Assembly (NCBI RefSeq): GCF_028561275.1
Contig: NZ_JAQQTF010000005.1
Span: forward strand, 62,001 to 126,000
Direction of reading: 5' to 3'
Source: Aureisphaera galaxeae
GTDB taxonomy: Bacteria > Bacteroidota > Bacteroidia > Flavobacteriales > Flavobacteriaceae
Length of the DNA: 64,000 nt
Of the stretch, positions 15,629-53,445 are shown piece by piece. The stretch's first letter is position 1. Each line of letters starts with the position of its first letter. Made by a program: the position numbers and the translations under genes. A model generated the notes under the pieces. It was not told the origin of the DNA, searched no databases, and saw nothing but the letters and a program-made list of their open reading frames with translations.

Positions 15629-15644
15629 TTTACGGGTTTACTTG

Positions 15645-15814: not shown

Positions 15815-15864
15815 CGAAAGGCAATGAGTTTAAAAGCTCAAGTTTAAATTTTAAATTCAATAAA

Positions 15865-16053: not shown

Positions 16054-16054
16054 G

Positions 16055-16060: not shown

Positions 16061-16067
16061 ATTGGTA

Positions 16068-16622: not shown

Positions 16623-16640
16623 TTGTTACGCTATATAATA

Positions 16641-16674: not shown

Positions 16675-16692
16675 ACATTTAAATTTTAAAAA

Positions 16693-17130: not shown

Positions 17131-17150
17131 TCTAGAAAAGAATCTATAAA

Positions 17151-17843: not shown

Positions 17844-17861
17844 GCGGAAAAACTATAGATT

Positions 17862-18383: not shown

Positions 18384-18439
18384 CCTAATTTATTGCACTG
18401 ATTAAAACACAAATAAAAATTACATTAAAACGATAGAAA

Positions 18440-18817
18440 ATGGCAGATTTAAAAGATTTCGCAGAACAATTGGTTAACTTAACTGTAAAAGAAGTTAATG
18501 AGTTAGCTACTATATTAAAAGACGAGTACGGTATCGAGCCTGCTGCTGCTGCGGTAGCTGTTGCTGCTGGTGGTGGTGCTGGTGGTGGAGACGCTGCTGA
18601 TGAGCAAACTGAGTTCGACGTAATCCTTAAAGCAGCTGGTGGTTCTAAGCTTGCTGTTGTTAAGTTGGTTAAAGAACTTACTGGTGCTGGTCTTAAGGAT
18701 GCTAAAGAATTAGTAGACAACGCTCCTTCTCCAATCAAAGAAGGAATCGCTAAAGACGAAGCTGAAGCTCTTAAAGCTCAGTTAGAAGAAGCTGGAGCAG
18801 AGGTTGAGCTTAAATAA
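18440..18817 (+). CDS. rplL: 50S ribosomal protein bL12
   Basis: 125 residues: N-terminal dimerisation helices ([26 protein letters not shown]), an Ala/Gly-rich flexible hinge ([22 protein letters not shown], about 35-57), and the compact C-terminal domain that contacts elongation factors ([37 protein letters not shown]). It is followed by a strong hairpin before rpoB. Confidence 0.97.
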
Positions 18818-33038: not shown

Positions 33039-36000
33039 ATGAAAAGATTATTACGATTTACAGATACAAACAATGCGAAGCTTTTTTGGCTTTCAATTTG
33101 TGTATTGCTGTTTTCATTTGGTTCTGTTTTTGCACAGGACATTACAGTAAATAAGATTGCTGTAGAAAACGCAACCGAGTGTAATCAGTTTGACGTCACT
33201 CTTGAAATAATTGGAAATCCACCTCCTAAGCCGCAGGAGGTTGTTTTGGTGATAGACCGATCTGGAAGTATGGGCTTCGACGATGGGGACCCTTCTACCT
33301 TACTTCCATTAGAATATGCGCAGGATGCGGCTATCGAGTTTGTTAATAACCTGTTTTTACCAGCCAATAACCCTACCGGTTTAAATAAAATTGCCTTGGT
33401 AACCTTTGGGACCGATGTTACCACAGAGGTTAATTTGGTGGGGAGTTCAGGGCAAAGCGATATTATCGATGAAATAAATGATATTGTTGCCAGTGGATGG
33501 ACAAATTCTGAAGGAGGATTAGTAGCAGCAGATAATGAGTTAATAAATAATGGTACGTTCGACTGTGCCACATCAAGAAGCATTATTTTCCTAACGGATG
33601 GTATTCCTACTTGGGAAATTGGAGCTTCAGATAATTGTGACGAAAGTGCAACAAGTAGCTGTACCTTAAATGCAATTCAGGCAGGGGTCAATGCCCAAAC
33701 AACTACCGTAGGTGGTGAAGTATACGATCAGAAAGTATTTTCGGTGGGTCTTATTGGTGCTTTGAACCAAGGACAAACCGCCATTGCAACTTCATTCTTG
33801 AACGATGTTCAGAATGCAGGTGCTTTCCTAACTACAAACAATGCCGATCTATCTGGAATCTATTCACAGATTCTGGGTCAGTTGGTATTTGCTGCCAAGC
33901 AATTGCCTGGACAGGCTTTAGTAACCGATGATATTGAAACGGGATTCTCTGTTGTAGGAGGTACGTTGAATCCAAGTAAAGGGACCACCAGTCTTTCTGG
34001 AAACACCATTTCTTGGTTTGTAGATGAAATTTTCGACGAAACCATTACCCTAACCTATACGATTGAAGCGATCTCTACGGATGTTTGTGGAGTTCAAGTT
34101 CCCGGTACGACGGTAATTAATTATGAAAACTCAAGTTGTCAAACCACTTCCGAAGTGTTTGATAATCCAGATATCTGTGTGCCTTGTCCGGAGCTAACAC
34201 CAACCGTAGCACGACAAGGTTGTACAAGTTTTGTAGACTATGCAGTCGCTGTAGATCAGATGGGATGTAATTCCCTTTCCGATTCTTATAGCTGGGAATT
34301 CTTCCTTAACGGAACTTCCGTAGGAACCGCTACCGGATCTAACGGAACTTTCGAATATACAGGAGGAGGTTCATTTACAGGGCAGTTCGTTGCAGAAGTT
34401 AGTTATACCGGTTCTTATGGAAGCGGTTGTGTGCTTCCTGCGGTAACCCAAACTACCAATGTACCATTAACTTGTTTCATTGCCGATTGGGATTATAGCT
34501 GTTCCGATAATAGAACAGTGGATGAATATCCGAACAATGCCAATTGCAACTCTAATACGACGATCAACATTCCGGATTCCAGTAATGTGTTCCAATATGT
34601 AGTAGAGATTGTATATGACGATGCCAATCCAGGAGCCACTATCGATTTCACCGATGGTGCTGGAGTAGTGCATACGTTACAAAGAACCTTGGTGAATGGA
34701 AGTACGAATGAGTGGTTCTACCGAGGATTGATTATTGGAAGTACAGATTCTGTAACCTACGTAGACAACTCGCTGCAGTGCGACTTACAGTCTATTGTAG
34801 TATATGCCTTCAGAAATTTCAACAGTAATACATCCAGTGCAGGAACCTTTACCAACCTAAGTGGTGTAAATAACATTCAGACGGTTTCAGTTACCATTCC
34901 ATCGTTCCCAACCTCAAGAGACGTGAGCGTTGAGGTGCCAATTTCAGAATTGACACCAGATGGGCGTTACCTATTATTACGTGCTGAAGCAGGAGGTATT
35001 TCTGATGAGGTGATCATTTACGGACCCGATGCTTCCTTGCCAGGAGGCACTTGTTGTATGGCCATTCCAATGTTGACGTTGGATAATGTACCGGGCACCG
35101 TGACTCAGGTAGACATTACTATCGATACTAGAAACGGACAAAATGGACAGACCGTAAATGGACAGTCTTGGGTATTGACCAGTGCCGTAAATGCCGATGT
35201 AGATTGTTACGCAGAATTAGATGTGACCGCTACTCCTACAGATGCGCTTTGTTTTGGTGATGACAGTGGTTCTATTGAAGCTGTTGCTACGGGAGGTATC
35301 GCACCTTATACCTATTCATTAAATAGTGGAACACCGCAAAGTAGTGGAACTTTTACGGGTCTAGTGGCTGGTGTATATACTATCGAAGTTGAAGACTCTA
35401 TTGGAAATACAGATTCCATTAGTGTGACCGTAGATGAGCCAGAACCAATTAGTGTAATCATTACAAAAGACAATGCATCTGCTTCTGGAGGTTGTGCCAA
35501 TGGTGAAGCTACCGCTACACCTAGCGGAGGAACAGCGCCTTATACCTATCTGTGGAGTGCTAGTGCAGGAAACCAAACAACGCAAACCGCGACCAACCTT
35601 CCTACGGGAACCCACACTGTTACCATTACCGATGCTAATGGGTGTATCCTTGAGCAAGGAGTCGTTATCGATTGTTTCAACGATTGTGATGCCGTAATCT
35701 CTGTAGACGATGTAGTAAATGTACTTTGTTCTGGAGAAGCAACAGGTAGTGCTACGGTAAGTGCCAGCTCTGCTGCCAATCCAACCGCATTGTTTACGTT
35801 CACTTGGAATACAACACCACCGCAAGTTGACAGTGGTGCTACTTCTAGTACTGTAACTGGACTAGCTGCAGGTGTTTATACGGTAAGTGTAACCATTGAC
35901 GGAACTGTGTGTTTGCCTGTTGAGCAAAGCGTTACCATTACCGAACCTTCTACGCCACTTTCAGTAACTGCTACAGCTACCGACGAAAATGGACCGACCA

Positions 36001-39000
36001 CGGGAGATGGAACAGCAACCGCTAACCCATCTGGAGGAACGCCGCCTTATACCTATTCTTGGAGCCCAGGAGGGGAAACGACACAAACAATCACTGGATT
36101 AAGTGCAGGAGATTATACCGTAACGGTAACCGATGCCAATGGTTGTGTCGCTACCGCTACCGCAACCGTAAACCCAGGTACTTGTCAAGGATTGAGTGTT
36201 ACCGCAACTTCCACTCCAGTAAGTTGTAATGGAGGAAATGATGGTACTGCATCCGCTTCTGTTAGCGGAGGAGTAGGAGCCTTTAGTTACCTATGGAGCC
36301 CAGGAGGGCAAACAACTCAGGATATTTCTGGATTAACTGCTGGATCATACACCGTAACGGTAACCGATGCTACTACGCAGTGTACTGCGGACTTTACAGT
36401 AACAGTAAATGAGCCTTCTGTATTGAGTTCTGGAATTGCCGTGAACAATGTTCCTTGTTTTGGGGATGCAACGGGATCCTTAGACCTTACCGTAACAGGA
36501 GGAACTTTTCCATATACTTTCCTATGGAGTAATGGTGAAACCACCGAAGATATTAACAACTTGGTTGCCGGAAGCTATTCCGTAACTATTACCGATGCCA
36601 ATGGATGTCAGACAACCAACAGCGCTACGGTTTCTCAACCAGCTGCTCCATTATCTGCATCCTCTACTTTCGTAGATGTATTGTGTAATGGCGATAGCAC
36701 TGGATCTATAGATGTAACCGTTAGTGGAGGAACCCCTCCATACTCTTACTCTTGGAATACTGGAGCAACGACTCAAGATTTAACCGACATTCCTGCGGGA
36801 ACCTATACAGTTGTGATCACAGATGCGAACAACTGTACGCTTACTGAAGGACCTATCAATATTTCTGAACCTTCTACTCCTATTAGTATCGTAATTACAA
36901 AGGAGAATGCTACTACTGCGCAAGCTTGTAACGATGGTGAAGCCACAGCCAATACGAGCGGTGGGACGCCACCATATACCTATCAGTGGAGTGCTAGTGC
37001 AGGAAGTCAGACAACAGAAACGGCTACCAACCTTCCACAAGGGACACACTCTGTAGTGGTAACCGATGCTAACGGTTGTACCTTAGAACAAAGTGTAGTA
37101 ATCGATTGTACCAATACCTGCGATGCTGTAATTACTATAGATGATGTAGTGGACGTACTTTGTACGGGAGATGCAACAGGTAGTGCTACTGTAAGTGCCA
37201 GTTCTGTGGCCAATCCGGGAGCTACCTTCACCTTCACTTGGAATACGACGCCTCCACAAGTGGATACGGGCGTAACCTCAAGTACGATCAGTAGCTTATT
37301 AGCAGGAACCTATACCGTAAGTGTAACCATAGACGGTACGGTATGTCTTCCAGTAGAAGAAACCATTATCATCACTGAACCTCAGAACCCACTTTCCGTG
37401 TCGGCTTCTGCAACGGACGAAAGCGGTCCAACCACTGGTGATGGTACTGCCACCGCAAGTCCATCGGGAGGAACACCGCCATACACCTATGTATGGAGCC
37501 CAGGAGGAGAAACGACTCAAACCATTACAGGATTGAGCGCTGGAGATTATACCGTAACTGTGACCGATGCCAACGGATGTACCGCTATGGCAACCACCAC
37601 AGTGAATCCAGGTACCTGTAGAAACCTATTGGCTTTTGCTTCGGCTACGCCAGTAACCTGTAATGGAGATAGTGACGGTACTGCTACCGTATCTGTTACA
37701 GGTGGATCGGGTAACTTCACGTATTTGTGGAGCCCTGGTGGACAAACCACGCAGAGTATTTCTGGACTTCCAGGAGGCGTGTACACAGTAACTGTGTTTG
37801 ATACAGTAACGCAATGTGACGTTACTGCCAATGCTACCGTAAATGAGCCTTCAGCATTGAGCTCCGGAATTGCGGTAAATAACGTATTATGTTTTGGTGA
37901 GGCTACGGGATCCCTAGACCTTACCGTTACAGGTGGAACTGCACCTTATACCTTCTTATGGAGCAATGGAGCGACCACAGAAGATATCGATAACCTCACT
38001 GCTGGGACGTATTCAGTGACCATTACCGATGCCAACGGTTGTGTATTAACGGACAGTGCTACTGTTCAGCAACCGCCATCAGGTCTTACAATAAGCATTA
38101 CAGCACAAACCGATATTTTATGTGGTGCTCCGAGTTCTGTTACTGCCACTGCAGCAGGGGGAACTGCACCGTATACCTATAACTTAGATGGTGGAACGCC
38201 ACAAGCTTCGGGTACCTTTACCGACCTAGCGGCTGGAAACTATACCATCAATGTATTAGATGCCAACGGCTGTACAGCTTCTGTTGCAGTGACCATTCTG
38301 GAAAATTGTACCGAAGCGATTGACGACATCAATGATACCTTTGTAAATGTACCAGTAGCTGGAAACGTATTGACCAACGATATCGACATCGAAGGCGATA
38401 CACAAACCGTGACTACAACGACTGTTACTTCTAACCAAGGAGTAAGTGTAACAATTGATGCAAGCACAGGGGCTTATACCTATACGCCACCAACCGACTA
38501 TGTAGGGGAGGACTTCTTCTCGTACAGTATTGAGGATGATGGAAATCCACAGGCTACCGATACGGCTACGGTTTATATTGAAGTGCTACCATTGAGTGGT
38601 CCAGAGAATGAAGCACCTATTGCTAACGAGGACACGAATACTACGCTAGTAGACACACCGATTTCCGGAAATGTATTGGTGAACGACTACGATCCAGACG
38701 GAGATCCAATCACCGTAACTGGAAATACCGATCCTGCTAATGGAACCGTTGTTGTTAATCCTGATGGAAGCTATACCTATACGCCGAATCCAGGTTTTGA
38801 AGGGGTAGATACCTTCGAATACACCATTTGCGATGACGGAACTCCAGCACTATGCGATACTGCCTTGGTAATTATCACCGTGATTCCAAACCACGGAAAC
38901 ATTACCGTTGCTAACGACGATGCCTACAACACCACTCCAGGTATGGCGGTTTCTGGTAATGTACTGGATAACGATTCCGATCCTGAAGGAGATAACCAAA

Positions 39001-42000
39001 CTGTAGATGCTGCCATTTCACCACTAAGTGGACCTACCAACGGAACACTTACGTTGAACGCAGACGGAACCTTCACCTATACACCAAATGCAGGATTTGG
39101 AGGAACCGATCAGTTTGTATATGAAATTTTTGACGATGGTAGCCCAGTAGCAAGAGATAGAGCTACAGTTTATGTAACTGTAGGTGGAATCTTGAACACT
39201 ACCGATGCCATTGATGACATTAACGATACCTTCGTGAATGTACCAGTTCCTGGAAACGTATTGACCAATGATATTGATTTCGAAGGAGACACCCAGACAG
39301 TTACTACGACTACTGTAACTACCACTTTGGGAATAACAGTAACTATAGATGCCAACACAGGAGCTTATATCTATACGCCGCTACCAGATTACATTGGGGA
39401 AGATTCCTTCCAATACACGATTGTAGACGATGGAAATCCACAGGCTACCGACACAGCGACGGTATACATTGAGGTTTCTCCACTAGGTGATCCAGACAAT
39501 GATCCACCAGTGGCTAATGCAGATACCAATACTACCGAAGTTGATACTCCAGTAAGTGGAAATGTACTAGTAAATGACTACGATCCCGATGGAGACCCAA
39601 TTACCGTAACCGGTAACACCGATCCTTCTAACGGAAGTGTGGTAGTGAACCCTGATGGAAGTTATACTTACACTCCGAGTCCAGGTTTCATAGGAGTGGA
39701 TATCTTCACATACACTATTTGTGATGATGGCACACCTGCCTTGTGCGATACTGCCGTAGTAACCATTACGGTAATTGCAGATCATCAAAACATCACCGTG
39801 GCGAACGACGATTCTTACTTCAGTTTCGTAAATGAGCCCATCAACGGAAATGTGTTGGATAACGATTCAGACCCAGAAGGAGATAATCAGTCAGTAGATA
39901 CTGCCTTAACTCCAATAGTTGGACCATCTAATGGTACGCTATCCATAAATGCAGACGGAACCTTTACCTATACACCGAATACCGACTATGTAGGTCCTGA
40001 TTTCTTTGTGTACTCCATTTTCGATGATGGAACACCAGTCGCTACCGATGTGGCAACGGTATACCTTCTTGTTGGATTGGATGGTAACACTACCTTAGCT
40101 GTAGATGACATTAACGATACTTACGTAAACCTTCCAGTGAGCGGAAATGTATTGACGAATGATTATGATGAGCAAGGTCACACACAAACCGTCACTACGA
40201 CTACTGTGACAACTGCTCAAGGAGTAACCGTAACGATCGACGCTAACACAGGGGCTTATACGTATACTCCTCCAACGGATTATGTTGGCGAGGATACCTT
40301 CGTATATAGCATTACCGATGACGGAAACCCATTGGCGACCGATTCAGCTACCGTTTATATCGAAGTATTGCCAATCGGTACTCCAGATAATGAGCCACCA
40401 GTGGCAAATGCCGATACCAATACTACTGAAGTGGATACGCCTGTAAGTGGAAATGTATTGGTAAACGACTTCGATCCAGATGGTGATCCAATTACCGTAA
40501 CCGGTAATACCGATCCATCCAACGGAACTGTGGTAGTAAACCCTGACGGAAGCTACACCTACACTCCAAACCTAGGATTCGAAGGTGAAGATACCTTTAC
40601 CTATACGATCTGTGATGATGGAACGCCTGCACTTTGTGATACAGCAACTGTAACCATTCAGGTAATCCCGAACAATGGAAACATTACTGTAGCGAATGAC
40701 GATGCCTACAATACCTTCATCGATACGCCAGTAAGTGGGAACGTATTGGACAACGACAATGATCCAGAAGGAGATACCCAGACGGTAACTTCAGCTACGG
40801 TAACAACGCAACAAGGAGTAACTGTAGCTATTGCCGCCGATGGTAGCTTTACGTACACACCAATTGCGGGATACACAGGAACGGATCAGTTCGTATATAC
40901 TATTGAAGATAACGGAACACTAACGGCAACAGCTCAAGCAACCGTTTACCTAACGATTGGTGATCCTGGCAATGACATCCTAGCAGTAGACGACATTAAT
41001 AATACATATGTAAACCTTCCAGTAAGTGGAGACGTTGGAACCAATGATGAGAATGCAGACGGTCCTGCGGGAACTGAAACGTTCACTCTAGTAACTGATG
41101 TTACCAACGGTATCCTAGTATTAAATTCTGATGGAACCTATACATATACTCCAGGTCCTGACTTCGTAGGAGAAGATACCTTCACCTACCAGATCTGTGA
41201 CGCTGGAAACCCAATAGCATGTGATACGGCTACGGTATACATCGAAGTATTGCCGATCGGTACTCCGGACAACGAGCCGCCAGTGGCAAACGCAGATACC
41301 AATACTACTGAAGTAGATACGCCTGTAAGTGGAAATGTACTCGTAAATGACTACGATCCCGATGGAGACCCAATTACCGTAACCGGTAACACTGATCCAT
41401 CCAACGGAACGGTAGTAGTGAATCCTGACGGAAGCTACACCTATACACCAAACCCAGGATTCGAAGGGGAGGATACCTTCATGTATACGATCTGTGATAA
41501 TGGAACGCCTGCGCTTTGCGATACGGCTACCGTAACCATTCAGGTAATCCCGAACAACGGAAACATTACTGTAGCGAATGATGATGCTTACAACACCTTC
41601 ATCGATACGCCGGTGAGTGGAAACGTATTGGATAACGATAACGATCCTGAAGGAGACACTCAGAGTGTGACTTCAACAACCGTGACTACCTTGCAAGGGG
41701 TAACTGTGAATATCGCTGCCGATGGTAGCTTCACCTATACACCAGCAAGCGGATTTACGGGAACGGATCAGTTTGTATACACTATTGAAGATAACGGTAC
41801 ACCAACGGCAACGGATCAAGCTACTGTGTACTTGACCATTGGTGGTCAAGGAAACGACATCCTTGCGGTAGACGATATTAATGATACGTATGTAAACCTT
41901 CCAGTAGATGGAAGCGTGGCGACCAATGATGAGAATGCAGACGGTCCTGTAGGAACTGAAGTGTTTACTCTAGTAACCGATGTAACCAACGGTACCTTGG

Positions 42001-45000
42001 TGTTCAATGCCGACGGAACATACACCTATACACCGGCTACAGACTTTGTAGGAGAAGATACCTTCACTTACCAGATCTGTGATGCTGGAACTCCTGTTGC
42101 TTGTGATACGGCTACGGTATACATCGAAGTATTGCCAATCGGTACTCCAGACAATGAGCCGCCAGTGGCCAATGCAGATACCAATACTACGGAAGTAGAT
42201 ACACCAGTTTCAGGAAATGTATTAGTAAATGACTTCGATCCAGATGGAGACCCAATTACCGTAACCGGTAATACCGATCCATCCAATGGAACGGTAGTTG
42301 TGAATCCTGACGGGACTTACACTTACACACCAAACCCAGGATTTGAAGGTGAGGATACTTTCACCTATACAATCTGTGATGATGGTACACCTGCACTTTG
42401 TGATACAGCAACTGTAACTATTCAGGTAATCCCGAATGGTGGAAACATTACAGTAGCTAACGATGATGCCTACAATACCTTCATCGACACTCCTGTGAGT
42501 GGAAATGTATTGGACAACGATAACGATCCAGAAGGTGATACGCAGACAGTAACTTCAGCAACTGTAACTACGCAGCAAGGAATAACGGTAAACATCGCTG
42601 CCAATGGTAGCTTTACGTATACGCCAGCGGCTGGATATACAGGAACGGATCAGTTTGTGTACACTATTGAAGATAGTGGTGCGCCAACGGCCACCGACCA
42701 AGCTACGGTTTACTTGACCATTGGAGACCCAGGAAACTATATCCTTGCGGTAGACGATATCAACGATACCTATGTAAATCTTCCAGTAAGTGGAAACGTT
42801 GGAACCAATGATGAGAATGCGGATGGTCCTGCGGGAACTGAGACATTCACTCTAGTGACCGATGTTACCAACGGAACCTTGGTGTTCAACACAGACGGAA
42901 CGTATACCTATACGCCAGGTACGGACTTCGTGGGAGAAGATACTTTCACCTACCAGATCTGTGATGCTGGAAACCCAATAGCATGTGATACGGCTATAGT
43001 ATACATTGAAGTATTGCCAATTGGTACTCCGGATAACGAGCCGCCAGTGGCCAATGCAGATACGAATACAACGGAAGTAGATACGCCAGTAAGTGGAAAC
43101 GTATTGGTAAATGACTTCGATCCTGATGGAGATCCAATTACCGTAACTGGCAATACAGATCCATCCAACGGAACAGTGGTAGTGAACCCAGACGGAAGCT
43201 ACACTTATACTCCGAACCCAGGATTTGAAGGAGAAGATACCTTCACATACACAATCTGTGATGATGGTACACCAGCCCTATGTGATACGGCTACCGTAAC
43301 CATTCAGGTAATTCCGAATAACGGAAACATCACTGTAGCGAACGATGATGCATACAATACCTTTGTTGATACTCCAGTAGATGGAAACGTATTGGATAAC
43401 GATAACGATCCCGAAGGAGATACTCAAACAGTAACTTCAACTACAGTGACCACGCAACAAGGTGTTACGGTATCAATTGATACTGATGGTAGCTTCACGT
43501 ATACACCAGCTGCTGGATACACAGGAACGGATCAGTTTGTATATACAATTGCAGACAATGGAAGTCCTGTAGCCACGGATCAAGCGACCGTATACCTTAC
43601 GATTGGTGACCCAGGAAATACAATCTTGGCCAAAGATGATATCAACGATACATTCGTAAACCTTCCAGTAAGCGGAGATGTTGGTACGAATGATGATAAT
43701 AGCGACGGACCAGCGAATACCGAAATCTTCACATTGATTACCGATGTGACTAACGGAACCTTGGTGTTCAACGCTGACGGAACGTACACATATACACCTG
43801 CTACGGACTTCGTAGGAGAGGATACCTTCACCTACCAAATCTGTGATGGTGGAAACCCTGTAGCATGCGATACGGCAGTGGTAACCATCGAAGTGGTGGC
43901 CGATCCTATCATCGATAACGATCCACCGATTGCTAATAACGATACTGCAGTAACCGAAGTGGATACTCCAGTAGACGGAAATGTATTGGTGAACGATTAC
44001 GATATGGATGGTGATCCAATTACCATCACAGGGAATACCGATCCTTCTAATGGAACCGTGGTATTGAATCCTGACGGAAGCTATACCTATACTCCAAACC
44101 CAGGATTCGAAGGTGAGGATACCTTTATGTACACCATCTGTGACAACGGTACACCGGCACTTTGCGATACTGCTACCGTAACCATATTGGTAATTCCGAA
44201 CAACGGAAACATCACTGTGGCTAATGACGATGCCTATTCTGGTGAAGTGGATACGCCAATTACAGGAAATGTGTTGGATAACGATTCCGATCCTGAAGGG
44301 GATAACCAAACATTGGATACAGGGGTAACTCCTGTAAGCGGACCAGCTAATGGTACTGTAGTATTCAACGCCGATGGTAGCTTCACCTATACTCCTAATG
44401 CTGGATTTATAGGAACAGATCAAATGGTATACAGCGTAAATGACGATGGAACACCACAAGCTTCAGATCAAGCGACTGTATATATCTTGATCAGACAAAC
44501 ACCTGCGCCAGCCATTGCTATCGTGAAGACCGGTACCTATGTGGATACCGATCAAGATCAGTGTGCCGATGCCGGTGAAACGATCGACTACATTTTTGCA
44601 GTAAGCAACCAAGGAAACGTGCCGTTAGGAAACATTACAGTGACCGATCCATTATTGGAGGCGCCGAACCCAGTAGTACCTATCGTATTTGAATCTGGTG
44701 ATACCAATAACGATGGTATGCTAGATGTGGACGAAACTTGGTTCTACATAGCAACATATGTGGTAACTCAAGATGATATCGATGCTGGAAATGTGACCAA
44801 CCAAGCTACTGCTGAAGGTACCGATGCCGACGGAACTACGGTAAGTGATCTTTCCGATGATGAAGTAGTAACTGAAGACGATCCAACCGTACTTACGTTG
44901 TGTCAGAGTTCGGTAATCGCTATCGTGAAAGATTCTATCCTAAATGATGAAAACGTAGATAACTGTACCGATCCAGGTGAAACAATCGACTATACTTTCA

Positions 45001-48000
45001 CTGTAACCAATGAAGGAAATACAAGTCTGTCTAACATCACGGTAACCGACCCATTATTGGAGGCTCCAAACCCAGTAGTACCTATCGTATTCGATTCTGG
45101 TGATACCGATGGAGATGGTGAGTTAGATGTAACTGAAACTTGGGTCTATACTGCCAGCTATGCAGTAACTCAAGATGATATAGATGCCGGACAGGTAACT
45201 AACCAAGCAACTGCTACAGGAACAACACCTAGTGGAGCTACTGTAAGTGACCTATCCGATGATGAATTAGTAACCGAAGACGATCCTACTGTGACCGAGC
45301 TTTGTCAGCAGCCTGTAATTGCGATTGTAAAAACAGGAGTATTTGTAGATGGCAACGGAGATCAGTGTTCCGACCCAGGTGAAATGATCGATTACACCTT
45401 CACCGTGACCAACGAAGGAAATGTAAGTCTTTCAAATATTACGGTAACCGATCCATTGTTAGAGGCTCCAAACCCAGTAGTACCTATCGTATTCGCATCA
45501 GGTGATACCGACGGTGACGGAGAATTGGATGTAACCGAAACATGGACGTACACTGCGAGTTACGCAATTACACAAATTGACATCGATGCTGGACAAGTAG
45601 AAAACCAAGCTACGGCTACTGGTACAGCTCCTGATACTTCAACAGTAAGTGATCTTTCTGATGATGAATTAGTGACTGAAGATGATCCGACTGTAACTGA
45701 CCTTTGTCAGAATCCAGTAATTGCGATTGTGAAGACCGGAGTATTTGTAGATACAGATCAAGATAATTGTGCAGACCCAGGCGAAACCATAGACTACACC
45801 TTCACTGTAACTAATGAAGGAAATGTAAGTCTTGGATTCATCACCGTGACCGATCCATTGTTGGAAGCGCCAAATCCAATTGTACCTATCGTATATGTGT
45901 CAGGTGATACCGATGGAGACGATGAATTGGATGTAGATGAAACTTGGATCTATACTGCTAGTTATGCAGTGACACAAGACGATATAGATGCCGGACAAGT
46001 AACCAACCAAGCAAGTGTGCTAGGTACTTCTCCAGCGAATGTAGGTGTTACCGACCTTTCTGATGATGAGGTAGTAACCGAAGACGATCCAACAGTGGTT
46101 ACCTTATGCCAGGCCCCAGCCATTGCTATCGTGAAAACGGCTAGCTATGACGACGGAGGCGACTGTAGCCAACCAGGTGAAATGATCGACTATACCTTCG
46201 AAGTAAGCAACCAAGGAAATGTAAGCTTAACTAATATTTCTGTAGATGACCCACTATTGGGAGGACCTGTTGCAGGACCAGATAGTGGTGATACCGATGG
46301 TGACGGAGAATTGGATGTAGATGAGGTTTGGGTATACACTGGAAGTTACACGATTACTCAGGTAGACATAGACAATGGTGAGGTATTGAACCAGGCCACT
46401 GCTGAAGGCACCGCTCCTGATGGAACTGTAGTAAGCGACTTATCCGGTGCTACTGTAGATACCGATGAGACAACAACGACTACATTATGTCAGTCTCCAG
46501 ATATTGCTATTGTTAAGACAGCTAGTTATGACGATGGAGGTGACTGTAGTCAGCCAGGTGAAGTGATTAACTACACTTTCGAGGTGAGCAACCAAGGAAA
46601 TGTAAGTTTAGCGAACATTGTAGTAGATGATCCATTATTGGGTGGACCTGTAGCAGGACCGGACAGTGGTGATACAGATGGTGACGGAGAATTGGATGTG
46701 ACTGAAGTTTGGGTATACACCGGAAGTTATACGATTACCCAGGTAGACATTGACAATGGTGAGGTATTGAACCAAGCTACTGCCGAAGGAACTGCTCCTG
46801 ACGGATCTATCGTAAGCGACCTATCTGGTGCTACCGTAGATACCGATGAGACTACGACAACCACATTGTGTCAGTCTCCAGCCATTGCTATCGTGAAAAC
46901 GGCTAGCTATGACGACGGAGGTGACTGTAGCCAGCCTGGTGAAATGATCAATTACACCTTCGAGGTGAGCAACCAAGGAAATGTAAGTCTAGCTAATATC
47001 TCTGTAGACGATCCATTATTAGGTGGACCTGTTGCTGGACCAGACAGTGGTGATACCGATGGTGACGGAGAATTGGATGTGACTGAAGTTTGGGTATACA
47101 CAGGAAGCTATACCATTACTCAGGCGGACATCGACAATGGTGAGGTATTGAACCAAGCTACTGCCGAAGGTACCGCTCCTAATGGAACCGTGGTAAGCGA
47201 CCTATCCGGTGCTACCGTAGATACCGATGAAACTACGACTACCACATTGTGTCAATCCCCAGCCATCGCAATAGTGAAGACCTCAAGTTATGATGACGGA
47301 GGCGACTGTAGCCAGCCGGGTGAGACGATCGACTATACTTTCGAGGTAAGCAACCAAGGAAATGTAAGTTTAGCGAACATTGTAGTAGATGATCCATTAT
47401 TGGGTGGACCTGTTGCTGGACCGGATAGTGGTGACACCGATGGTGACGGAGAATTGGATGTAGACGAAGTATGGGTGTACACAGGAAGTTATACCATTAC
47501 TCAGGGTGATATCGACAACGGAGAGGTATTGAACCAAGCTACGGCTGAAGGTACCGCTCCAGATGGAACCGTAGTAAGTGACCTTTCCGGTGCTACTGTA
47601 GATACGGATGAGACCACAACCACTGAGCTTTGCCAGGATGCTTCGATTGCCATAGTGAAGACCTCAAGTTATGATGACGGAGGTGATTGTAGCCAGCCAG
47701 GTGAAACCATCGACTATACTTTCGAGGTAAGCAACCAAGGAAATGTAAGCTTAGCGAACATCGTAGTAGACGACCCATTATTGGGTGGACCCATTGCTGG
47801 ACCAGACAGTGGTGATACCGATGGAGATGGAGAATTGGATGTAGATGAAGTATGGGTATATACTGGAAGTTATACTATCACTCAAGTTGATATCGACAAT
47901 GGAGAGGTAGTGAACCAAGCTACTGCCGAAGGTACTGCTCCAGATGGAACCGTAGTAAGCGACCTTTCTGGATCTACAGTGGATACAGACGATACAACCA

Positions 48001-49859
48001 CTACCGATCTTTGTCAGGAAGCTGCCATTGCAATTGTGAAAACGTCCAGTTATGACGATGGCGGTGACTGTAGCGAACCTGGAGAGGTGATCGACTATAC
48101 TTTCGAGGTGAGTAACCTTGGAAATGTAAGCTTAGCGAACATTGTAGTAGACGATCCATTATTGGGTGGACCTGTAGCAGGACCAGATAGTGGTGATACC
48201 GATGGTGACGGAGAACTGGATACAGATGAAGTATGGGTATACACAGGAAGCTATACGATCACGCAAGGTGATATCGACAATGGTGAGGTGTTGAACCAAG
48301 CTACAGCCGAAGGAACCGCTCCTGATGGCACTGTGGTAAGCGACCTTTCTGGTGCTACAGTGGATACAGACGATACAACCACTACCGATCTTTGTCAGGA
48401 TGCAAGCATTGCCTTGATCAAGACTGGAGTAGTGACTGATAGTGACGGTGACAAGTGTGCTGATACCAAGGAAACCATCGAGTACAGCTTTGAAGTGATC
48501 AACACTGGTAATGTTACTGTGACCAATATAGATGTAGACGATCCATTGGTGAATGTACTAGGAGGACCTATTACATTAGAGCCAGGAGAATCTGACAGTA
48601 CAACATTCACAGCCACTTATGTAATAACGCAAGCGGATATAGATGCAGGGCAAGTAGAGAACCAAGCAACAGCTACGGGTGTTACCGTAACTGGTGAAAC
48701 CGTTACCGACTTGAGTGATGACGACAGCCCTGTTGAGGATGATCCAACGATCACCGAACTATGTCAGGATGCGGTAATCGCATTGATCAAGGTAGGTACG
48801 CCAACCGATGAGGATGGTGACGGATGTATCGATCTTGGAGAGACGATTGTGTACGACTTCGTAGTGACCAACCTTGGTAATGTAGAATTGACCAATGTTA
48901 TCGTTACCGATCCGTTAGTAGATGTTGTAGGGGGACCTGTAACTATTGCTGCTGGTGAGTCTGATACTGAAACCTTCACTGCAATTTACACCGTAACACA
49001 AGAAGATGTAGACAATGGCGAAGTAGTGAATCAGGCAACTGCTGAAGGAACCGCTCCGGACGGAACGATAGTGTCCGACTTGAGTGACGATGATAGCGTA
49101 TTCGAAAATGATCCAACCATTAGTTCATTGTGTCAGAATCCAAAAATGTCTCTAGAGAAGACAGGAGTATTTAACGATGACAATGGAGATCAGATTCCGC
49201 AAGTAGGAGAGACCATTACTTATACCTTCAGTGTAACCAATACAGGAGATGTTACACTTTACAACATCACCATTACCGATCCGCTTCCAGGAGTAGTGAT
49301 CGAAGGTGGACCGATTGAAGTATTGGAGGTAGGTGAAACCGATAGTACGACCTTTACCGGTACGTACCAGATTACACAAGAAGACATCGAAGCAGGTGAG
49401 GTAATTAACCAAGCCCTTGCTACAGGTCAAGACGGTGATGGTAATGAAGTGGATGATGATAGTGATGACCCAACCGATATTACCAATACCGATAACGACG
49501 GTGATGGTGATCCGGACGATCCAACAGTAACCGATATACCAAACGTTGGAGGAGCTATATTCGAAATATTCAACGGTATTACACCAAACGGAGATGGATT
49601 GAATGACTTCTTCGAAATCCGAGGAATTACAGACTTCCCGAACAACAACGTGAAGATATTCAACAGATGGGGTGTATTGATATTCGAGACCGATGGATAT
49701 AATGAAACAACCAACGTATTTACGGGTAGATCCAATGCGAGAGCGACCATTAGTGAAGACGAAGAGCTTCCAACAGGAACTTACTTCTACGTGTTAACGT
49801 TCTCAGGAGAAAATCCAGGGCAAAACACCTATAACGGATATTTATACATAAACAGATAG
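33039..49859 (+). CDS. Giant SprB-like T9SS surface adhesin (5,606 residues)
   Basis: Signal peptide about 1-33. A von Willebrand A domain (about 66-285) keeps the MIDAS residues Asp73-x-Ser75-x-Ser77, a conserved Thr (SGWTNSEGG) and Asp (LTDGIPT). A Cys-containing linker follows to about 726. Then 13 SprB-type modules (about 727-1757, GG(T)xPYTYxW...VTDANGC), 21 cadherin/Big-like modules (about 1760-3819, GNVLxNDxDPxGD) and 13 DUF11/DUF7507-like modules (about 3825-5490; xIAIVKTG...GETIDYTFxVxNxGN...DxDGDGELDV, likely Ca2+-binding). The last 100 residues (ITPNGDGLNDFF...FNRWG...GTYFYVL...YNGYLYINR) are the gliding-type CHU_C sorting domain that marks T9SS type-B cargo. The predicted product is a very large, acidic cell-surface filament for adhesion or gliding. 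The downstream PorP/SprF gene fits the sprB-sprF pairing. Confidence 0.9.
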   Translation: MKRLLRFTDTNNAKLFWLSICVLLFSFGSVFAQDITVNKIAVENATECNQFDVTLEIIGNPPPKPQEVVLVIDRSGSMGFDDGDPSTLLPLEYAQDAAIEFVNNLFLPANNPTGLNKIALVTFGTDVTTEVNLVGSSGQSDIIDEINDIVASGWTNSEGGLVAADNELINNGTFDCATSRSIIFLTDGIPTWEIGASDNCDESATSSCTLNAIQAGVNAQTTTVGGEVYDQKVFSVGLIGALNQGQTAIATSFLNDVQNAGAFLTTNNADLSGIYSQILGQLVFAAKQLPGQALVTDDIETGFSVVGGTLNPSKGTTSLSGNTISWFVDEIFDETITLTYTIEAISTDVCGVQVPGTTVINYENSSCQTTSEVFDNPDICVPCPELTPTVARQGCTSFVDYAVAVDQMGCNSLSDSYSWEFFLNGTSVGTATGSNGTFEYTGGGSFTGQFVAEVSYTGSYGSGCVLPAVTQTTNVPLTCFIADWDYSCSDNRTVDEYPNNANCNSNTTINIPDSSNVFQYVVEIVYDDANPGATIDFTDGAGVVHTLQRTLVNGSTNEWFYRGLIIGSTDSVTYVDNSLQCDLQSIVVYAFRNFNSNTSSAGTFTNLSGVNNIQTVSVTIPSFPTSRDVSVEVPISELTPDGRYLLLRAEAGGISDEVIIYGPDASLPGGTCCMAIPMLTLDNVPGTVTQVDITIDTRNGQNGQTVNGQSWVLTSAVNADVDCYAELDVTATPTDALCFGDDSGSIEAVATGGIAPYTYSLNSGTPQSSGTFTGLVAGVYTIEVEDSIGNTDSISVTVDEPEPISVIITKDNASASGGCANGEATATPSGGTAPYTYLWSASAGNQTTQTATNLPTGTHTVTITDANGCILEQGVVIDCFNDCDAVISVDDVVNVLCSGEATGSATVSASSAANPTALFTFTWNTTPPQVDSGATSSTVTGLAAGVYTVSVTIDGTVCLPVEQSVTITEPSTPLSVTATATDENGPTTGDGTATANPSGGTPPYTYSWSPGGETTQTITGLSAGDYTVTVTDANGCVATATATVNPGTCQGLSVTATSTPVSCNGGNDGTASASVSGGVGAFSYLWSPGGQTTQDISGLTAGSYTVTVTDATTQCTADFTVTVNEPSVLSSGIAVNNVPCFGDATGSLDLTVTGGTFPYTFLWSNGETTEDINNLVAGSYSVTITDANGCQTTNSATVSQPAAPLSASSTFVDVLCNGDSTGSIDVTVSGGTPPYSYSWNTGATTQDLTDIPAGTYTVVITDANNCTLTEGPINISEPSTPISIVITKENATTAQACNDGEATANTSGGTPPYTYQWSASAGSQTTETATNLPQGTHSVVVTDANGCTLEQSVVIDCTNTCDAVITIDDVVDVLCTGDATGSATVSASSVANPGATFTFTWNTTPPQVDTGVTSSTISSLLAGTYTVSVTIDGTVCLPVEETIIITEPQNPLSVSASATDESGPTTGDGTATASPSGGTPPYTYVWSPGGETTQTITGLSAGDYTVTVTDANGCTAMATTTVNPGTCRNLLAFASATPVTCNGDSDGTATVSVTGGSGNFTYLWSPGGQTTQSISGLPGGVYTVTVFDTVTQCDVTANATVNEPSALSSGIAVNNVLCFGEATGSLDLTVTGGTAPYTFLWSNGATTEDIDNLTAGTYSVTITDANGCVLTDSATVQQPPSGLTISITAQTDILCGAPSSVTATAAGGTAPYTYNLDGGTPQASGTFTDLAAGNYTINVLDANGCTASVAVTILENCTEAIDDINDTFVNVPVAGNVLTNDIDIEGDTQTVTTTTVTSNQGVSVTIDASTGAYTYTPPTDYVGEDFFSYSIEDDGNPQATDTATVYIEVLPLSGPENEAPIANEDTNTTLVDTPISGNVLVNDYDPDGDPITVTGNTDPANGTVVVNPDGSYTYTPNPGFEGVDTFEYTICDDGTPALCDTALVIITVIPNHGNITVANDDAYNTTPGMAVSGNVLDNDSDPEGDNQTVDAAISPLSGPTNGTLTLNADGTFTYTPNAGFGGTDQFVYEIFDDGSPVARDRATVYVTVGGILNTTDAIDDINDTFVNVPVPGNVLTNDIDFEGDTQTVTTTTVTTTLGITVTIDANTGAYIYTPLPDYIGEDSFQYTIVDDGNPQATDTATVYIEVSPLGDPDNDPPVANADTNTTEVDTPVSGNVLVNDYDPDGDPITVTGNTDPSNGSVVVNPDGSYTYTPSPGFIGVDIFTYTICDDGTPALCDTAVVTITVIADHQNITVANDDSYFSFVNEPINGNVLDNDSDPEGDNQSVDTALTPIVGPSNGTLSINADGTFTYTPNTDYVGPDFFVYSIFDDGTPVATDVATVYLLVGLDGNTTLAVDDINDTYVNLPVSGNVLTNDYDEQGHTQTVTTTTVTTAQGVTVTIDANTGAYTYTPPTDYVGEDTFVYSITDDGNPLATDSATVYIEVLPIGTPDNEPPVANADTNTTEVDTPVSGNVLVNDFDPDGDPITVTGNTDPSNGTVVVNPDGSYTYTPNLGFEGEDTFTYTICDDGTPALCDTATVTIQVIPNNGNITVANDDAYNTFIDTPVSGNVLDNDNDPEGDTQTVTSATVTTQQGVTVAIAADGSFTYTPIAGYTGTDQFVYTIEDNGTLTATAQATVYLTIGDPGNDILAVDDINNTYVNLPVSGDVGTNDENADGPAGTETFTLVTDVTNGILVLNSDGTYTYTPGPDFVGEDTFTYQICDAGNPIACDTATVYIEVLPIGTPDNEPPVANADTNTTEVDTPVSGNVLVNDYDPDGDPITVTGNTDPSNGTVVVNPDGSYTYTPNPGFEGEDTFMYTICDNGTPALCDTATVTIQVIPNNGNITVANDDAYNTFIDTPVSGNVLDNDNDPEGDTQSVTSTTVTTLQGVTVNIAADGSFTYTPASGFTGTDQFVYTIEDNGTPTATDQATVYLTIGGQGNDILAVDDINDTYVNLPVDGSVATNDENADGPVGTEVFTLVTDVTNGTLVFNADGTYTYTPATDFVGEDTFTYQICDAGTPVACDTATVYIEVLPIGTPDNEPPVANADTNTTEVDTPVSGNVLVNDFDPDGDPITVTGNTDPSNGTVVVNPDGTYTYTPNPGFEGEDTFTYTICDDGTPALCDTATVTIQVIPNGGNITVANDDAYNTFIDTPVSGNVLDNDNDPEGDTQTVTSATVTTQQGITVNIAANGSFTYTPAAGYTGTDQFVYTIEDSGAPTATDQATVYLTIGDPGNYILAVDDINDTYVNLPVSGNVGTNDENADGPAGTETFTLVTDVTNGTLVFNTDGTYTYTPGTDFVGEDTFTYQICDAGNPIACDTAIVYIEVLPIGTPDNEPPVANADTNTTEVDTPVSGNVLVNDFDPDGDPITVTGNTDPSNGTVVVNPDGSYTYTPNPGFEGEDTFTYTICDDGTPALCDTATVTIQVIPNNGNITVANDDAYNTFVDTPVDGNVLDNDNDPEGDTQTVTSTTVTTQQGVTVSIDTDGSFTYTPAAGYTGTDQFVYTIADNGSPVATDQATVYLTIGDPGNTILAKDDINDTFVNLPVSGDVGTNDDNSDGPANTEIFTLITDVTNGTLVFNADGTYTYTPATDFVGEDTFTYQICDGGNPVACDTAVVTIEVVADPIIDNDPPIANNDTAVTEVDTPVDGNVLVNDYDMDGDPITITGNTDPSNGTVVLNPDGSYTYTPNPGFEGEDTFMYTICDNGTPALCDTATVTILVIPNNGNITVANDDAYSGEVDTPITGNVLDNDSDPEGDNQTLDTGVTPVSGPANGTVVFNADGSFTYTPNAGFIGTDQMVYSVNDDGTPQASDQATVYILIRQTPAPAIAIVKTGTYVDTDQDQCADAGETIDYIFAVSNQGNVPLGNITVTDPLLEAPNPVVPIVFESGDTNNDGMLDVDETWFYIATYVVTQDDIDAGNVTNQATAEGTDADGTTVSDLSDDEVVTEDDPTVLTLCQSSVIAIVKDSILNDENVDNCTDPGETIDYTFTVTNEGNTSLSNITVTDPLLEAPNPVVPIVFDSGDTDGDGELDVTETWVYTASYAVTQDDIDAGQVTNQATATGTTPSGATVSDLSDDELVTEDDPTVTELCQQPVIAIVKTGVFVDGNGDQCSDPGEMIDYTFTVTNEGNVSLSNITVTDPLLEAPNPVVPIVFASGDTDGDGELDVTETWTYTASYAITQIDIDAGQVENQATATGTAPDTSTVSDLSDDELVTEDDPTVTDLCQNPVIAIVKTGVFVDTDQDNCADPGETIDYTFTVTNEGNVSLGFITVTDPLLEAPNPIVPIVYVSGDTDGDDELDVDETWIYTASYAVTQDDIDAGQVTNQASVLGTSPANVGVTDLSDDEVVTEDDPTVVTLCQAPAIAIVKTASYDDGGDCSQPGEMIDYTFEVSNQGNVSLTNISVDDPLLGGPVAGPDSGDTDGDGELDVDEVWVYTGSYTITQVDIDNGEVLNQATAEGTAPDGTVVSDLSGATVDTDETTTTTLCQSPDIAIVKTASYDDGGDCSQPGEVINYTFEVSNQGNVSLANIVVDDPLLGGPVAGPDSGDTDGDGELDVTEVWVYTGSYTITQVDIDNGEVLNQATAEGTAPDGSIVSDLSGATVDTDETTTTTLCQSPAIAIVKTASYDDGGDCSQPGEMINYTFEVSNQGNVSLANISVDDPLLGGPVAGPDSGDTDGDGELDVTEVWVYTGSYTITQADIDNGEVLNQATAEGTAPNGTVVSDLSGATVDTDETTTTTLCQSPAIAIVKTSSYDDGGDCSQPGETIDYTFEVSNQGNVSLANIVVDDPLLGGPVAGPDSGDTDGDGELDVDEVWVYTGSYTITQGDIDNGEVLNQATAEGTAPDGTVVSDLSGATVDTDETTTTELCQDASIAIVKTSSYDDGGDCSQPGETIDYTFEVSNQGNVSLANIVVDDPLLGGPIAGPDSGDTDGDGELDVDEVWVYTGSYTITQVDIDNGEVVNQATAEGTAPDGTVVSDLSGSTVDTDDTTTTDLCQEAAIAIVKTSSYDDGGDCSEPGEVIDYTFEVSNLGNVSLANIVVDDPLLGGPVAGPDSGDTDGDGELDTDEVWVYTGSYTITQGDIDNGEVLNQATAEGTAPDGTVVSDLSGATVDTDDTTTTDLCQDASIALIKTGVVTDSDGDKCADTKETIEYSFEVINTGNVTVTNIDVDDPLVNVLGGPITLEPGESDSTTFTATYVITQADIDAGQVENQATATGVTVTGETVTDLSDDDSPVEDDPTITELCQDAVIALIKVGTPTDEDGDGCIDLGETIVYDFVVTNLGNVELTNVIVTDPLVDVVGGPVTIAAGESDTETFTAIYTVTQEDVDNGEVVNQATAEGTAPDGTIVSDLSDDDSVFENDPTISSLCQNPKMSLEKTGVFNDDNGDQIPQVGETITYTFSVTNTGDVTLYNITITDPLPGVVIEGGPIEVLEVGETDSTTFTGTYQITQEDIEAGEVINQALATGQDGDGNEVDDDSDDPTDITNTDNDGDGDPDDPTVTDIPNVGGAIFEIFNGITPNGDGLNDFFEIRGITDFPNNNVKIFNRWGVLIFETDGYNETTNVFTGRSNARATISEDEELPTGTYFYVLTFSGENPGQNTYNGYLYINR
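35217..38309 (+). repeat. SprB-type module array with a five-module block duplication
   Basis: Thirteen modules of about 75-95 residues. Modules 2-6 (from 35448) recur in the same order as modules 8-12 (from 36882), an offset of 1,434 bp. Module 7 separates the two copies, and modules 1 and 13, which flank the whole set, resemble each other (xPYTYxLxxGTPQxSGTFT). Confidence 0.85.
38316..44496 (+). repeat. Higher-order cadherin/Big-like repeat array (7 units of 3 modules)
   Basis: Each unit is (DDINDT...) + (ADTNTTEVDTPVSGN...) + (ANDDAYNT...). The start of the third module falls at 38910, 39801, 40692, 41574, 42456, 43338 and 44220: spacings of 891, 891, 882, 882, 882 and 882 bp. The change of period matches a change in the first module from an EGDTQTV type to an ENADGPAGTE type. 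Confidence 0.9.
44511..49511 (+). repeat. DUF11/DUF7507-like module array (402, 381 and 369 bp periods)
   Basis: Thirteen modules begin at 44511, 44913, 45315, 45717, 46119, 46500, 46881, 47262, 47643, 48024, 48405, 48774 and 49143. Spacings are 402 (four times), 381 (six times) and 369 (twice), so units of equal length are grouped. Confidence 0.9.
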
Positions 49860-49910
49860 ACAGTAAAACCCTAAATGGCTAGACCTTTTATGGATACAAA
49901 ATTGATAAAC

Positions 49911-50870
49911 ATGAAAAATAATTACCTAGCAATCTTAGTTCTGATTTTACTCGGCACCTTTTCGAGTAAGGCGCAGCAGGATCCACAGTATACACAATAC
50001 ATGTATAATACTCAGGTAGTGAACCCCGCCTATGTGGGATCCAAGGAAACGCTTAATTTCGGTTTATTGGGCCGTACACAGTGGGTGAACTTCGAGGGAG
50101 CTCCTAAAACGGGAACCTTCACCGCGGGGACCCCAATTGGTGCCCTTCAAAATATGGGGTTGGGGCTGTCCATCGTGCATGACGAGTTGGGACCTGCCAT
50201 AGAATCCAATATAAATATCGACTATGCCTATGTGATCAACGCATCCGAAAACGCAAAAGTTTCTTTCGGAGTGAAGGCAGGGATCGATTTATTGGATGTG
50301 GATTTCACCAAGCTGAATATTGCTGATGCCGGAGATGTTTTCGAAAATCCCGTGGATAGAAGGCTACAACCTCAAATTGGGGCAGGAGCTTACTATTTTA
50401 CAGATAAGTTCTATGCCGGACTTTCGGTGCCGAACTTCTTGACCACGAGTCACTTCGATGAGTCTCAGATAGATGCCATTGTAGATGATCCTTCAAGTTT
50501 TGCAGGAGAAACTACCGCTGCAGAAAGATTGCATTATTTCTTGATTGCGGGATACGTATTCGACATTAGTGATAACCTTAAGTTTAAGCCTGCTACTCTT
50601 ATTAAAGCAGTGAGCGGCTCCCCATTGCAGTGGGATGCGTCTGGTACGTTCCTAATTAACGAGAAATTTACCTTGGGAGCATCCTACAGATGGAGTGCTG
50701 CATTGAGTGCCATTGCAGGTTTCCAGGTAAGTGACGAGATATTTATTGGGGTAGGATATGATTATCAAACCACCGATATCGAAACCTACAGTGACGGTTC
50801 GTACGAAGTGTTCCTTAAGTTCGATATCTTTAATAAACCAGAGCGTGTATTGTCTCCAAGATTCTTTTAA
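49911..50870 (+). CDS. PorP/SprF family T9SS-associated outer-membrane protein
   Basis: 319 residues from ATG 49911 (MKNNYLAILVLILLGTFSSKAQ signal peptide, A-rich upstream context); an earlier in-frame ATG at 49875 would add a non-signal-like stretch. The mature start QQDPQYTQYMYNTQVVNPAYVGSKETLNFGLLGRTQW is the PorP/SprF signature, followed by an OmpA-like or beta-barrel type body ending RVLSPRFF. In Flavobacterium johnsoniae, SprF is needed for surface display of the neighbouring SprB. It starts 51 bases after the giant adhesin gene, and the gene order strongly suggests that it is its dedicated partner. Confidence 0.92.
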   Translation: MKNNYLAILVLILLGTFSSKAQQDPQYTQYMYNTQVVNPAYVGSKETLNFGLLGRTQWVNFEGAPKTGTFTAGTPIGALQNMGLGLSIVHDELGPAIESNINIDYAYVINASENAKVSFGVKAGIDLLDVDFTKLNIADAGDVFENPVDRRLQPQIGAGAYYFTDKFYAGLSVPNFLTTSHFDESQIDAIVDDPSSFAGETTAAERLHYFLIAGYVFDISDNLKFKPATLIKAVSGSPLQWDASGTFLINEKFTLGASYRWSAALSAIAGFQVSDEIFIGVGYDYQTTDIETYSDGSYEVFLKFDIFNKPERVLSPRFF

Positions 50871-52821: not shown

Positions 52822-52848
52822 TGTAAACTTACCAAGATTATGACCCCT

Positions 52849-52877
52849 AAGCGCCCGACGAAAGTTGGGCGCTTTTT
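52849..52877 (+). terminator. Strong intrinsic terminator closing the adhesin operon
   Basis: AAGCGCCCGAC and GTTGGGCGCTT form an 11-bp stem around a GAAA loop, followed by a T tract. Confidence 0.92.
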
Positions 52878-52900
52878 GTTTTCCTTAACATCGCATTTCG

Positions 52901-52908
52901 TATTTTTG
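52901..52908 (+). promoter_or_regulatory. idi promoter -7 element (TATTTTTG)
   Basis: TATTTTTG lies 21 bases before the idi ATG; TTTG at 52875-52878 is 22 bases upstream as a possible -33 element. Confidence 0.55.
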
Positions 52909-52929
52909 GGTCAAAATTGCTGGATATTC

Positions 52930-53445
52930 ATGGAAGAACAAGTTATTCTTGTCAATGAAAAAGACGAAAAAATAGGGTTGATGCCCAAACAGGAAGCTCA
53001 CGAAAAAGGGGTTTTGCATCGCGCATTTTCTGTATTTGTATTTAATGATGATAATGAGCTCATGCTTCAGCAAAGAGCACTGGACAAATACCATTCACCT
53101 GGATTGTGGACCAATACCTGTTGTAGCCATCAGCGTGACGGAGAATCTTCCCTAGAAGCAGGGATACGAAGATTGGAAGAGGAAATGGGATTCACTACAG
53201 AGCTTAAGGAAACCACCTCTTTTATCTATAAAGCTCCTTTCGATAATGGTCTCACAGAACACGAGCTGGATCATATTTTGGTAGGGCACTACAATGGGGA
53301 GCCTTCCATTAATAAGGAAGAAGTAGCGGCTTGGAAATGGATGCCTCTAGAAGAGGTAAAGGAAGACATTGTTCAAAATCCGGCCGAATACACCGCTTGG
53401 TTCAAAATAATATTCGAAAAATTCTACGAACATCTTAGTGTATGA
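52930..53445 (+). CDS. idi: Isopentenyl-diphosphate delta-isomerase (type 1)
   Basis: 171 residues from ATG 52930; upstream in-frame codons run through the terminator and promoter. Nudix-fold type 1 Idi: TNTCCSH with the catalytic Cys, SSLEAGIRRLEEEMGF (Nudix-like helix) and the second active-site region TEHELDHILVG. It interconverts isopentenyl and dimethylallyl diphosphate in isoprenoid synthesis. It leads a compact operon with a QueD/PTPS homologue (4-bp overlap), a peroxiredoxin and manA. Confidence 0.93.
   Translation: MEEQVILVNEKDEKIGLMPKQEAHEKGVLHRAFSVFVFNDDNELMLQQRALDKYHSPGLWTNTCCSHQRDGESSLEAGIRRLEEEMGFTTELKETTSFIYKAPFDNGLTEHELDHILVGHYNGEPSINKEEVAAWKWMPLEEVKEDIVQNPAEYTAWFKIIFEKFYEHLSV

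Follow-up and report, generated by a model that had tools for sequence, protein, structure and literature searches.

Of the systems described so far, those closest to the giant adhesin locus of Aureisphaera galaxeae analysed here come from Flavobacterium johnsoniae, and both are covered in PMC12618676. The gliding adhesin SprB has SprB repeats (PF13573), a type B signal for the type IX secretion system (T9SS) and a downstream PorP/SprF gene, and the Fjoh_3952-Fjoh_3951-Fjoh_3950 operon encodes a protein with a Type B C-terminal domain (CTD), with an SprF-like gene directly downstream and a PorE-like gene next. According to the same paper, two Type B substrates depend on such PorP/SprF shuttles; Fjoh_3952, whose operon includes the PorE-like gene, forms static foci only, and neither SprB nor either of two further dynamic substrates shares an operon with that gene. 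Two further comparisons concern the stalk: in Periscope Proteins tandem folded domains form a stalk that projects the N-terminal domain, with unit number differing between relatives, and titin super-repeats are ordered blocks of different domains conserved by their position in the block (PMC10665226). The window, a stretch of 64,000 nucleotides (contig NZ_JAQQTF010000005.1, positions 62,001 to 126,000, in an assembly of 4.59 Mb in 19 contigs), contains a single open reading frame (ORF) for an adhesin of 5606 residues, and the middle part of its stalk consists of 21 Ig/cadherin-like modules arranged as seven A-B-C units. The best overall explanation, to which we give a probability of about 0.65, is that this stalk was amplified in A-B-C blocks, with outer units kept and a lineage-specific interior, and that it belongs to a probably static T9SS adhesin.

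The adhesin is of an already known kind. Its Pfam content comprises VWA, SprB repeats, Big_9/Cadherin_5 modules, DUF7507 repeats, DUF11 and CHU_C, and its first 33 residues read like an N-terminal signal peptide. The VWA domain carries a DRSGS motif at residue 73, which we take to fit the DxSxS metal-binding motif. The C-terminus has the type B sorting domain of a T9SS Type B substrate, with matches to TIGR04131 (44.7 bits, cut-off 35) and to PF13585 CHU_C (95.2 bits, cut-off 27), and a PorP/SprF gene lies directly downstream, a common although not universal feature of such substrates. The SprB repeats, the type B signal and the PorP/SprF gene are points of likeness to SprB, but the window adhesin gene is followed by a PorE-like gene and also encodes Big_9/Cadherin_5 and DUF7507 arrays; subject to a PorE score that falls below its cut-off, the locus therefore lacks the arrangement of an SprB-type gliding adhesin, an operon without a PorE-like gene. 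The gene order is that of the Fjoh_3952 operon, a likeness drawn from published descriptions. It is by analogy with that operon that a static location is assigned to the window protein, which is most likely a static adhesin, probably acting in surface or cell-cell adhesion and not in gliding.

The module array itself is well defined. Big_9 matches 21 stretches (5 + 16) in the two pieces that contain it, chance therefore being excluded, and in the piece 39801-44700 the Pfam gathering scores are passed by both Big_9 (880.2 bits versus 23.6) and Cadherin_5 (604.3 versus 26.5). A search of solved structures gave four distinct sequences at E <=0.01, the best of them RTX protein 36gk_A (E 3.7e-8), and unit 5 had no blastn match among plasmids. 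The first-pass annotation had described seven three-module units in one ORF, which both the module map and the Big_9 matches bear out, and it had placed the third-module starts at 38910, 39801, 40692, 41574, 42456, 43338 and 44220, with spacings of 891, 891 and then four times 882 bp; when the starts are counted from ANDD, these figures are exactly reproduced. Ig/cadherin-like modules are roughly 4 nm long, and 21 of them would add some 80 nm of stalk.

The change of spacing had been taken as one switch coinciding with a change in the first module from EGDTQTV to ENADGPAGTE. The change in wording is real (A1-A2 have EGDTQTV, A3 QGHTQTV, A4 and A6 ENADGPAGTE, A5 ENADGPVGTE and A7 DNSDGPANTE), but a single period switch is rejected in favour of two separate events. 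The C module goes from 306 bp in units 1-2 to 300 bp in units 3-6 (102 to 100 aa), and the A module from 297 bp in units 1-3 to 294 bp in units 4-7 (99 to 98 aa), with the B module constant at 288 bp; the C event thus falls at unit 3 and the A event at unit 4. Because both length changes lie between C3 and C4, they appear as one 9-bp switch, but only when spacings are read from B or C starts; measured from A starts, the series is 891, 891, 885, 882, 882 and 882. The DUF7507/DUF11 repeats that follow the array also step in period (134 residues four times, 127 six times and 123 twice), so the A-B-C array is not alone in changing its period by steps.

The repeat had also been called exact, which is true of its period but not of its sequence. 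Pairwise DNA identity across the seven units is 63-84%, the best same-type module pair reaches 88.9%, and no exact match within the array exceeds 50 bp. Unit 3 is closer to units 4-6 (77% identity) than to units 1-2 (68-70%), unit 7 is set apart at 67-73% identity to units 3-6, and in average-linkage clustering the pair of units 4 and 5 is joined first by unit 6, next by unit 3 and last by unit 7, while units 1 and 2 pair off on their own. A clustering into two tracts, units 1-3 and 4-7, is found in the A modules only; the B and C modules are most alike within units 3-6, and A3 has a type-1 core with a last stretch nearer to A4-A6 (79-81%) than to units 1-2 (73-74%). The interior group is thus units 3-6, with A3 retaining an older core.

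These copies are not young. Among whole units 4-6 synonymous divergence (dS) is 0.75-1.01 and nonsynonymous divergence (dN) about 0.06, which rules out recent homogenisation of the array, and B3 and B6 have 99% protein identity with a dS of 0.96 and a dN of 0.005. By comparison, dS is 0.02 between the near-identical units 3 and 4 of Altibacter lentus, 0.09 between units 4 and 5 of Altibacter HG106 and 0.08 between units 1 and 2 of the relative G004. No dS was obtainable between the window PorP gene and that of the same-genus genome G001, which we read as saturation; set against the values for units 4-6, this indicates that the interior expansion is probably younger than the split from G001, yet far from recent. 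The array looks like an ordinary, long-established member of its adhesin family and not like a freshly copied, fast-changing repeat, and regular spacing alone is no proof that copies are young or unstable. Judged by their divergence, the window units would be too different for easy unequal recombination.

Relatives were sought in 60 related genomes, with matches in 29, many of them weak, and a scan of genome contigs, from which the best 80 of 302 matching stretches were taken, gave 73 loci. In these loci the A-B-C arrays have 1 to 6 units, compared with 7 in the window; the largest is that of Altibacter HG106 (6 units), and seven of eight Aquimarina loci have a single unit, the eighth (L076) having one unit and a separate A-like module. 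Unit number thus varies between species and genera. Near-identical adjacent units are present in A. lentus (units 3 and 4, 881/888 bp), Altibacter HG106 (4 and 5, 865/888) and G004 (1 and 2, 874/894), and block duplication of triplets in this adhesin family is well supported. In same-phase module comparisons within 28 relative loci, a pair of at least 95% identity occurs in 12 and the best pair is below 88.9% in 10, so the window is not extreme in either direction. Two Tenacibaculum genomes share 84-92% DNA identity between same-position modules against averages of 78-82% (maxima 83 for A, 90 for B and 86 for C) between different positions, and units there have therefore, for the most part, remained recognisable since the two species diverged.

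Some arrays of relatives are interrupted by assembly breaks, which we counted in 44 of the 73 loci, picked by us for their A-B-C pattern. With a break defined as an array run starting within 400 bp, or ending within 60 bp, of a contig end, 15 of the 44 are cut, and contig ends inside arrays fit near-identical copies breaking assemblies. At L041:5789-15460 and L038:5170-13729 two ORFs make up the adhesin gene, be it through an error or a real break. At an A. lentus locus (L035) the CTD-PorP-PorE stretch at 1-3519 is repeated at 15099-18617, identical over 3519 bp and a further 63 bp beyond, so that at least the terminal part of the adhesin operon is duplicated in tandem.

The kinship of units by position was examined in module trees, built quickly with SH-aLRT (Shimodaira-Hasegawa-like approximate likelihood ratio test) support for 29 loci including the window, with one array run per locus, 88 A, 90 B and 91 C rows, and modules shorter than 80 aa or containing N excluded; seven of the 36 loci entered in the same-phase comparison (L049, L056, L069, L072, L077, L078 and L088) lie outside them. 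In the A tree the type-2 A modules of many genera, 46 rows in all, make up a single clade (99); 13 rows, namely window A7, 11 other last-unit A modules and A4 of SAT49, also group together (96), and window A4-6 form a clade (97). In the C tree the C1 modules of the window, HG106 and SAT49 group together (89), as do their C2 modules (92), and window C3-6 are a clade of their own (99). The positional kinship of the outer units accordingly comes from the C modules for units 1 and 2 and from the A module for unit 7, and A4-6 and C3-6 are lineage-specific. The A-type switch is present in Altibacter and SAT49 as well and, being common to other genera, predates this genome.

The change in the C modules has a recognisable form. 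Most of the length of C3-C6 resembles C1, C2 and C7, whereas their core, at alignment columns 31-52, resembles A1-A3 (permutation test 0/5000 for aa and 1/5000 for nt; for the control C7, 2430/5000 and 457/5000), as if a core segment had been taken over from an A module. By a rough text pattern in 28 loci (outside the window it makes no call for 4/85 C, 10/81 B and 5/81 A modules, and 2 A modules score as both types), the A-like core is found in 4/92 C modules, all of them in the window, 8/88 B and 20/88 A. The eight B modules are all from relatives (HG106 B1-3, A. lentus B1, SAT49 B1-3 and SS63 B1) and are 98-100 aa long, compared with 96 aa for the window B modules. The sequences suggest that a core segment moves between module positions, shifting the period as it does so.

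Some other properties of the array are of note. There are 22 cysteines, with pairs in B1-B7 and in A4-A7, so that type-2 A modules may add a possible disulfide in the part of the stalk closest to the C-terminal anchor; the pairs are not universal, the G004 array being without cysteine. The array (38316-44495) has only 4 Lys+Arg in 2060 residues, with 15.9% Asp+Glu, and in nine other arrays Lys+Arg is 0-0.7% in eight and 3.5% in L065; a scarcity of these residues could possibly mean protease resistance.

The gene neighbourhood (Table 1) is consistent with the array being the stalk of a T9SS Type B adhesin in an adhesin-PorP/SprF-PorE-like operon. The product of the PorE-like gene has OmpA and PD40 above the Pfam cut-offs, CarboxypepD_reg and TPR_12 below them, and a score of 396 bits against the CHU_0125_OmpA model (cut-off 620). 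The order recurs among the 46 relative loci in which it was counted: 36 have a detected CTD at or after the array, with PorP within 120 bp in 35/36, PorE within 2500 bp in 34/36 and an isomerase match in 14/36. In the other ten no such CTD was detected, several of them lying at contig ends; one (L063) has PorP and PorE and no detected CTD. The locus without PorP (L030) stops at that point, and in G001 (L074) PorP is followed by another SprB-repeat ORF.

Table 1. Features of the adhesin locus, in window coordinates.
Feature	Coordinates	Strand	Remarks
Giant adhesin ORF	33039..49859	+	5606 aa; single open frame
Unit 1	38316..39206	+	891 bp; A1 38316, B1 38613, C1 38901
Unit 2	39207..40097	+	891 bp; A2 39207, B2 39504, C2 39792
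Unit 3	40098..40982	+	885 bp; A3 40098, B3 40395, C3 40683; first short C, A-like core
Unit 4	40983..41864	+	882 bp; A4 40983, B4 41277, C4 41565; first type-2 A module
Unit 5	41865..42746	+	882 bp; A5 41865, B5 42159, C5 42447
Unit 6	42747..43628	+	882 bp; A6 42747, B6 43041, C6 43329
Unit 7 (last)	43629..44495	+	A7 43629, B7 43923, C7 44211; end from C7 profile match
DUF7507/DUF11 repeats	44511..49500	+	after array; 13 repeat starts, 44511 to 49143; end approximate
PorP/SprF family gene	49875..50870	+	15 bp after adhesin stop; PF11751 273.8 bits vs 22.3; TIGR03519 263 vs 90.55
PorE-like OmpA/PD40 gene	50881..52821	+	profile matches
Isopentenyl-diphosphate isomerase gene	52840-53445		next after adhesin operon

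Several other accounts of the array can be given. The first-pass annotation's model has units 1-3 and 4-7 as two tracts, which unequal recombination or gene conversion would recently have made uniform, each within itself, with copy number varying between strains. The near-identical adjacent units and the 15/44 broken arrays of relatives are in keeping with such a process, as is the division of the A modules, but a unit 3/4 tract boundary for all module types is rejected since unit 3 groups with 4-6 rather than with 1-2 and resemblance among B and among C modules is highest in units 3-6, and the A switch is present in other genera; with the dS of units 4-6 contradicting recent homogenisation, this account is improbable. 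What survives of it is the origin by duplication, in the form of triplet block duplication in the family, and not the separate homogenisation of tracts in this genome. A second account is that selection, and not descent, makes the interior units alike, a rod needing one protein sequence while synonymous sites are kept different, suppressing recombination. The B3/B6 pair, almost invariant in protein and far apart at synonymous sites, is what this would look like, but the A4-6 and C3-6 clades are as duplication with purifying selection predicts, and we regard selection without descent as unlikely, if marginally less so than the two tracts. Least credible is an assembly artefact in copy number or period. 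Family arrays do coincide with contig ends, but with so short a longest exact repeat and a best module pair of 88.9%, ordinary reads should separate the copies, and the frame is open throughout; repeat length and identity within the array make an artefact very unlikely.

A tentative possibility is that exchange of a core segment between module types underlies both the A-type switch and the C change, the type-2 A module perhaps consisting of A ends and a B- or C-like core. The A4-7 core is nearer to B than to A1-3 (permutation 23/5000 for aa, 0/5000 for nt) and nearer to C1/C2/C7 than to A1-3 (0/5000 for both), so an exchange of this sort may also lie behind the A switch, and both core types also occur in B modules of relatives; but a DGP stretch in the type-2 A core is absent from window B and C modules, and the event is too old for synonymous-site testing. 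Block amplification with an old, lineage-specific interior, the explanation that we prefer, has several observations weighing against it. The trees are quick ones on about 100 columns, with many forks unsettled; window A1 and A2 have no supported pairing by position, window C7 lies apart from other last-unit C modules, and the last-unit clade does not include the final A modules of Cochleicola and Leeuwenhoekiella. The B tree joins window B1 with B2 (94) and B4 with B7 (91), and B modules therefore give no positional signal. Since dS is saturated for many pairs, conversion and convergence of the C core are inseparable by synonymous sites. As for the static role, it comes from one F. johnsoniae example, and the PorE-like gene scores 334 bits against a cut-off of 600 for NCBIfam PorE (NF052230).

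The history that we propose would begin with amplification of the A-B-C triplet as a block, the single triplet of seven Aquimarina loci representing an older state, although loss is conceivable. Outer units would tend to stay recognisable across genera, each lineage having expanded its interior independently. In the lineage of the window, a C module may have gained an A-like core of ~20 residues, either ahead of the multiplication of units 3-6 or in the course of it; together with the A-type switch from 99 to 98 aa, an older event common to other genera, this would give the 891-to-882 change. Interior copies would afterwards have diverged at synonymous sites under protein constraint. The adhesin would be secreted with its PorP/SprF partner and held at the surface with the PorE-like protein, and, as judged from family and operon, the stalk would project the N-terminal VWA domain outward.

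Arrangement in triplets has a consequence for neighbouring modules, which are 40-58% identical (mean 49, 20 pairs), compared with an average of 81% for same-type modules of neighbouring units. In large multidomain proteins adjacent domains are usually less than 50% identical, which has been proposed to limit misfolding, and Periscope Proteins run counter to this rule (PMC8201768). Block duplication would hold neighbours at about 49% identity and so may limit misfolding between them; different-type modules that are not neighbours are equally dissimilar (mean 50%), and the pattern alone is therefore not proof of selection. The window array differs from Periscope Proteins, whose repeats are described as highly identical and strain-variable, in the 63-84% identity of its units and its best module pair of 88.9%, and in that variation is known here between species; titin, although built of similar blocks, is in its protein and function unrelated to the adhesin. 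We found no prior description of giant tandem Ig-like T9SS adhesin arrays of Flavobacteriaceae in one open-access library of papers, and an earlier account may exist elsewhere.

A more speculative idea, which we consider possible but doubtful, is that of a 'triplet periscope'. Recombination in steps of ~0.88 kb would alter stalk length with neighbours remaining half identical, so that the misfolding cost of single-domain periscope repeats is escaped; outer units would be fixed while the interior turns over, and the ~20-residue core would be a cassette exchangeable between A, B and C, its exchange shifting the period by one to three codons. If true, repeat stalks could change length without identical, misfolding-prone neighbours. 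More generally, the locus illustrates in detail how a giant stalk on a bacterial surface may evolve, with ends that tend to be conserved, a lineage-specific interior, and exchange of segments inside modules.

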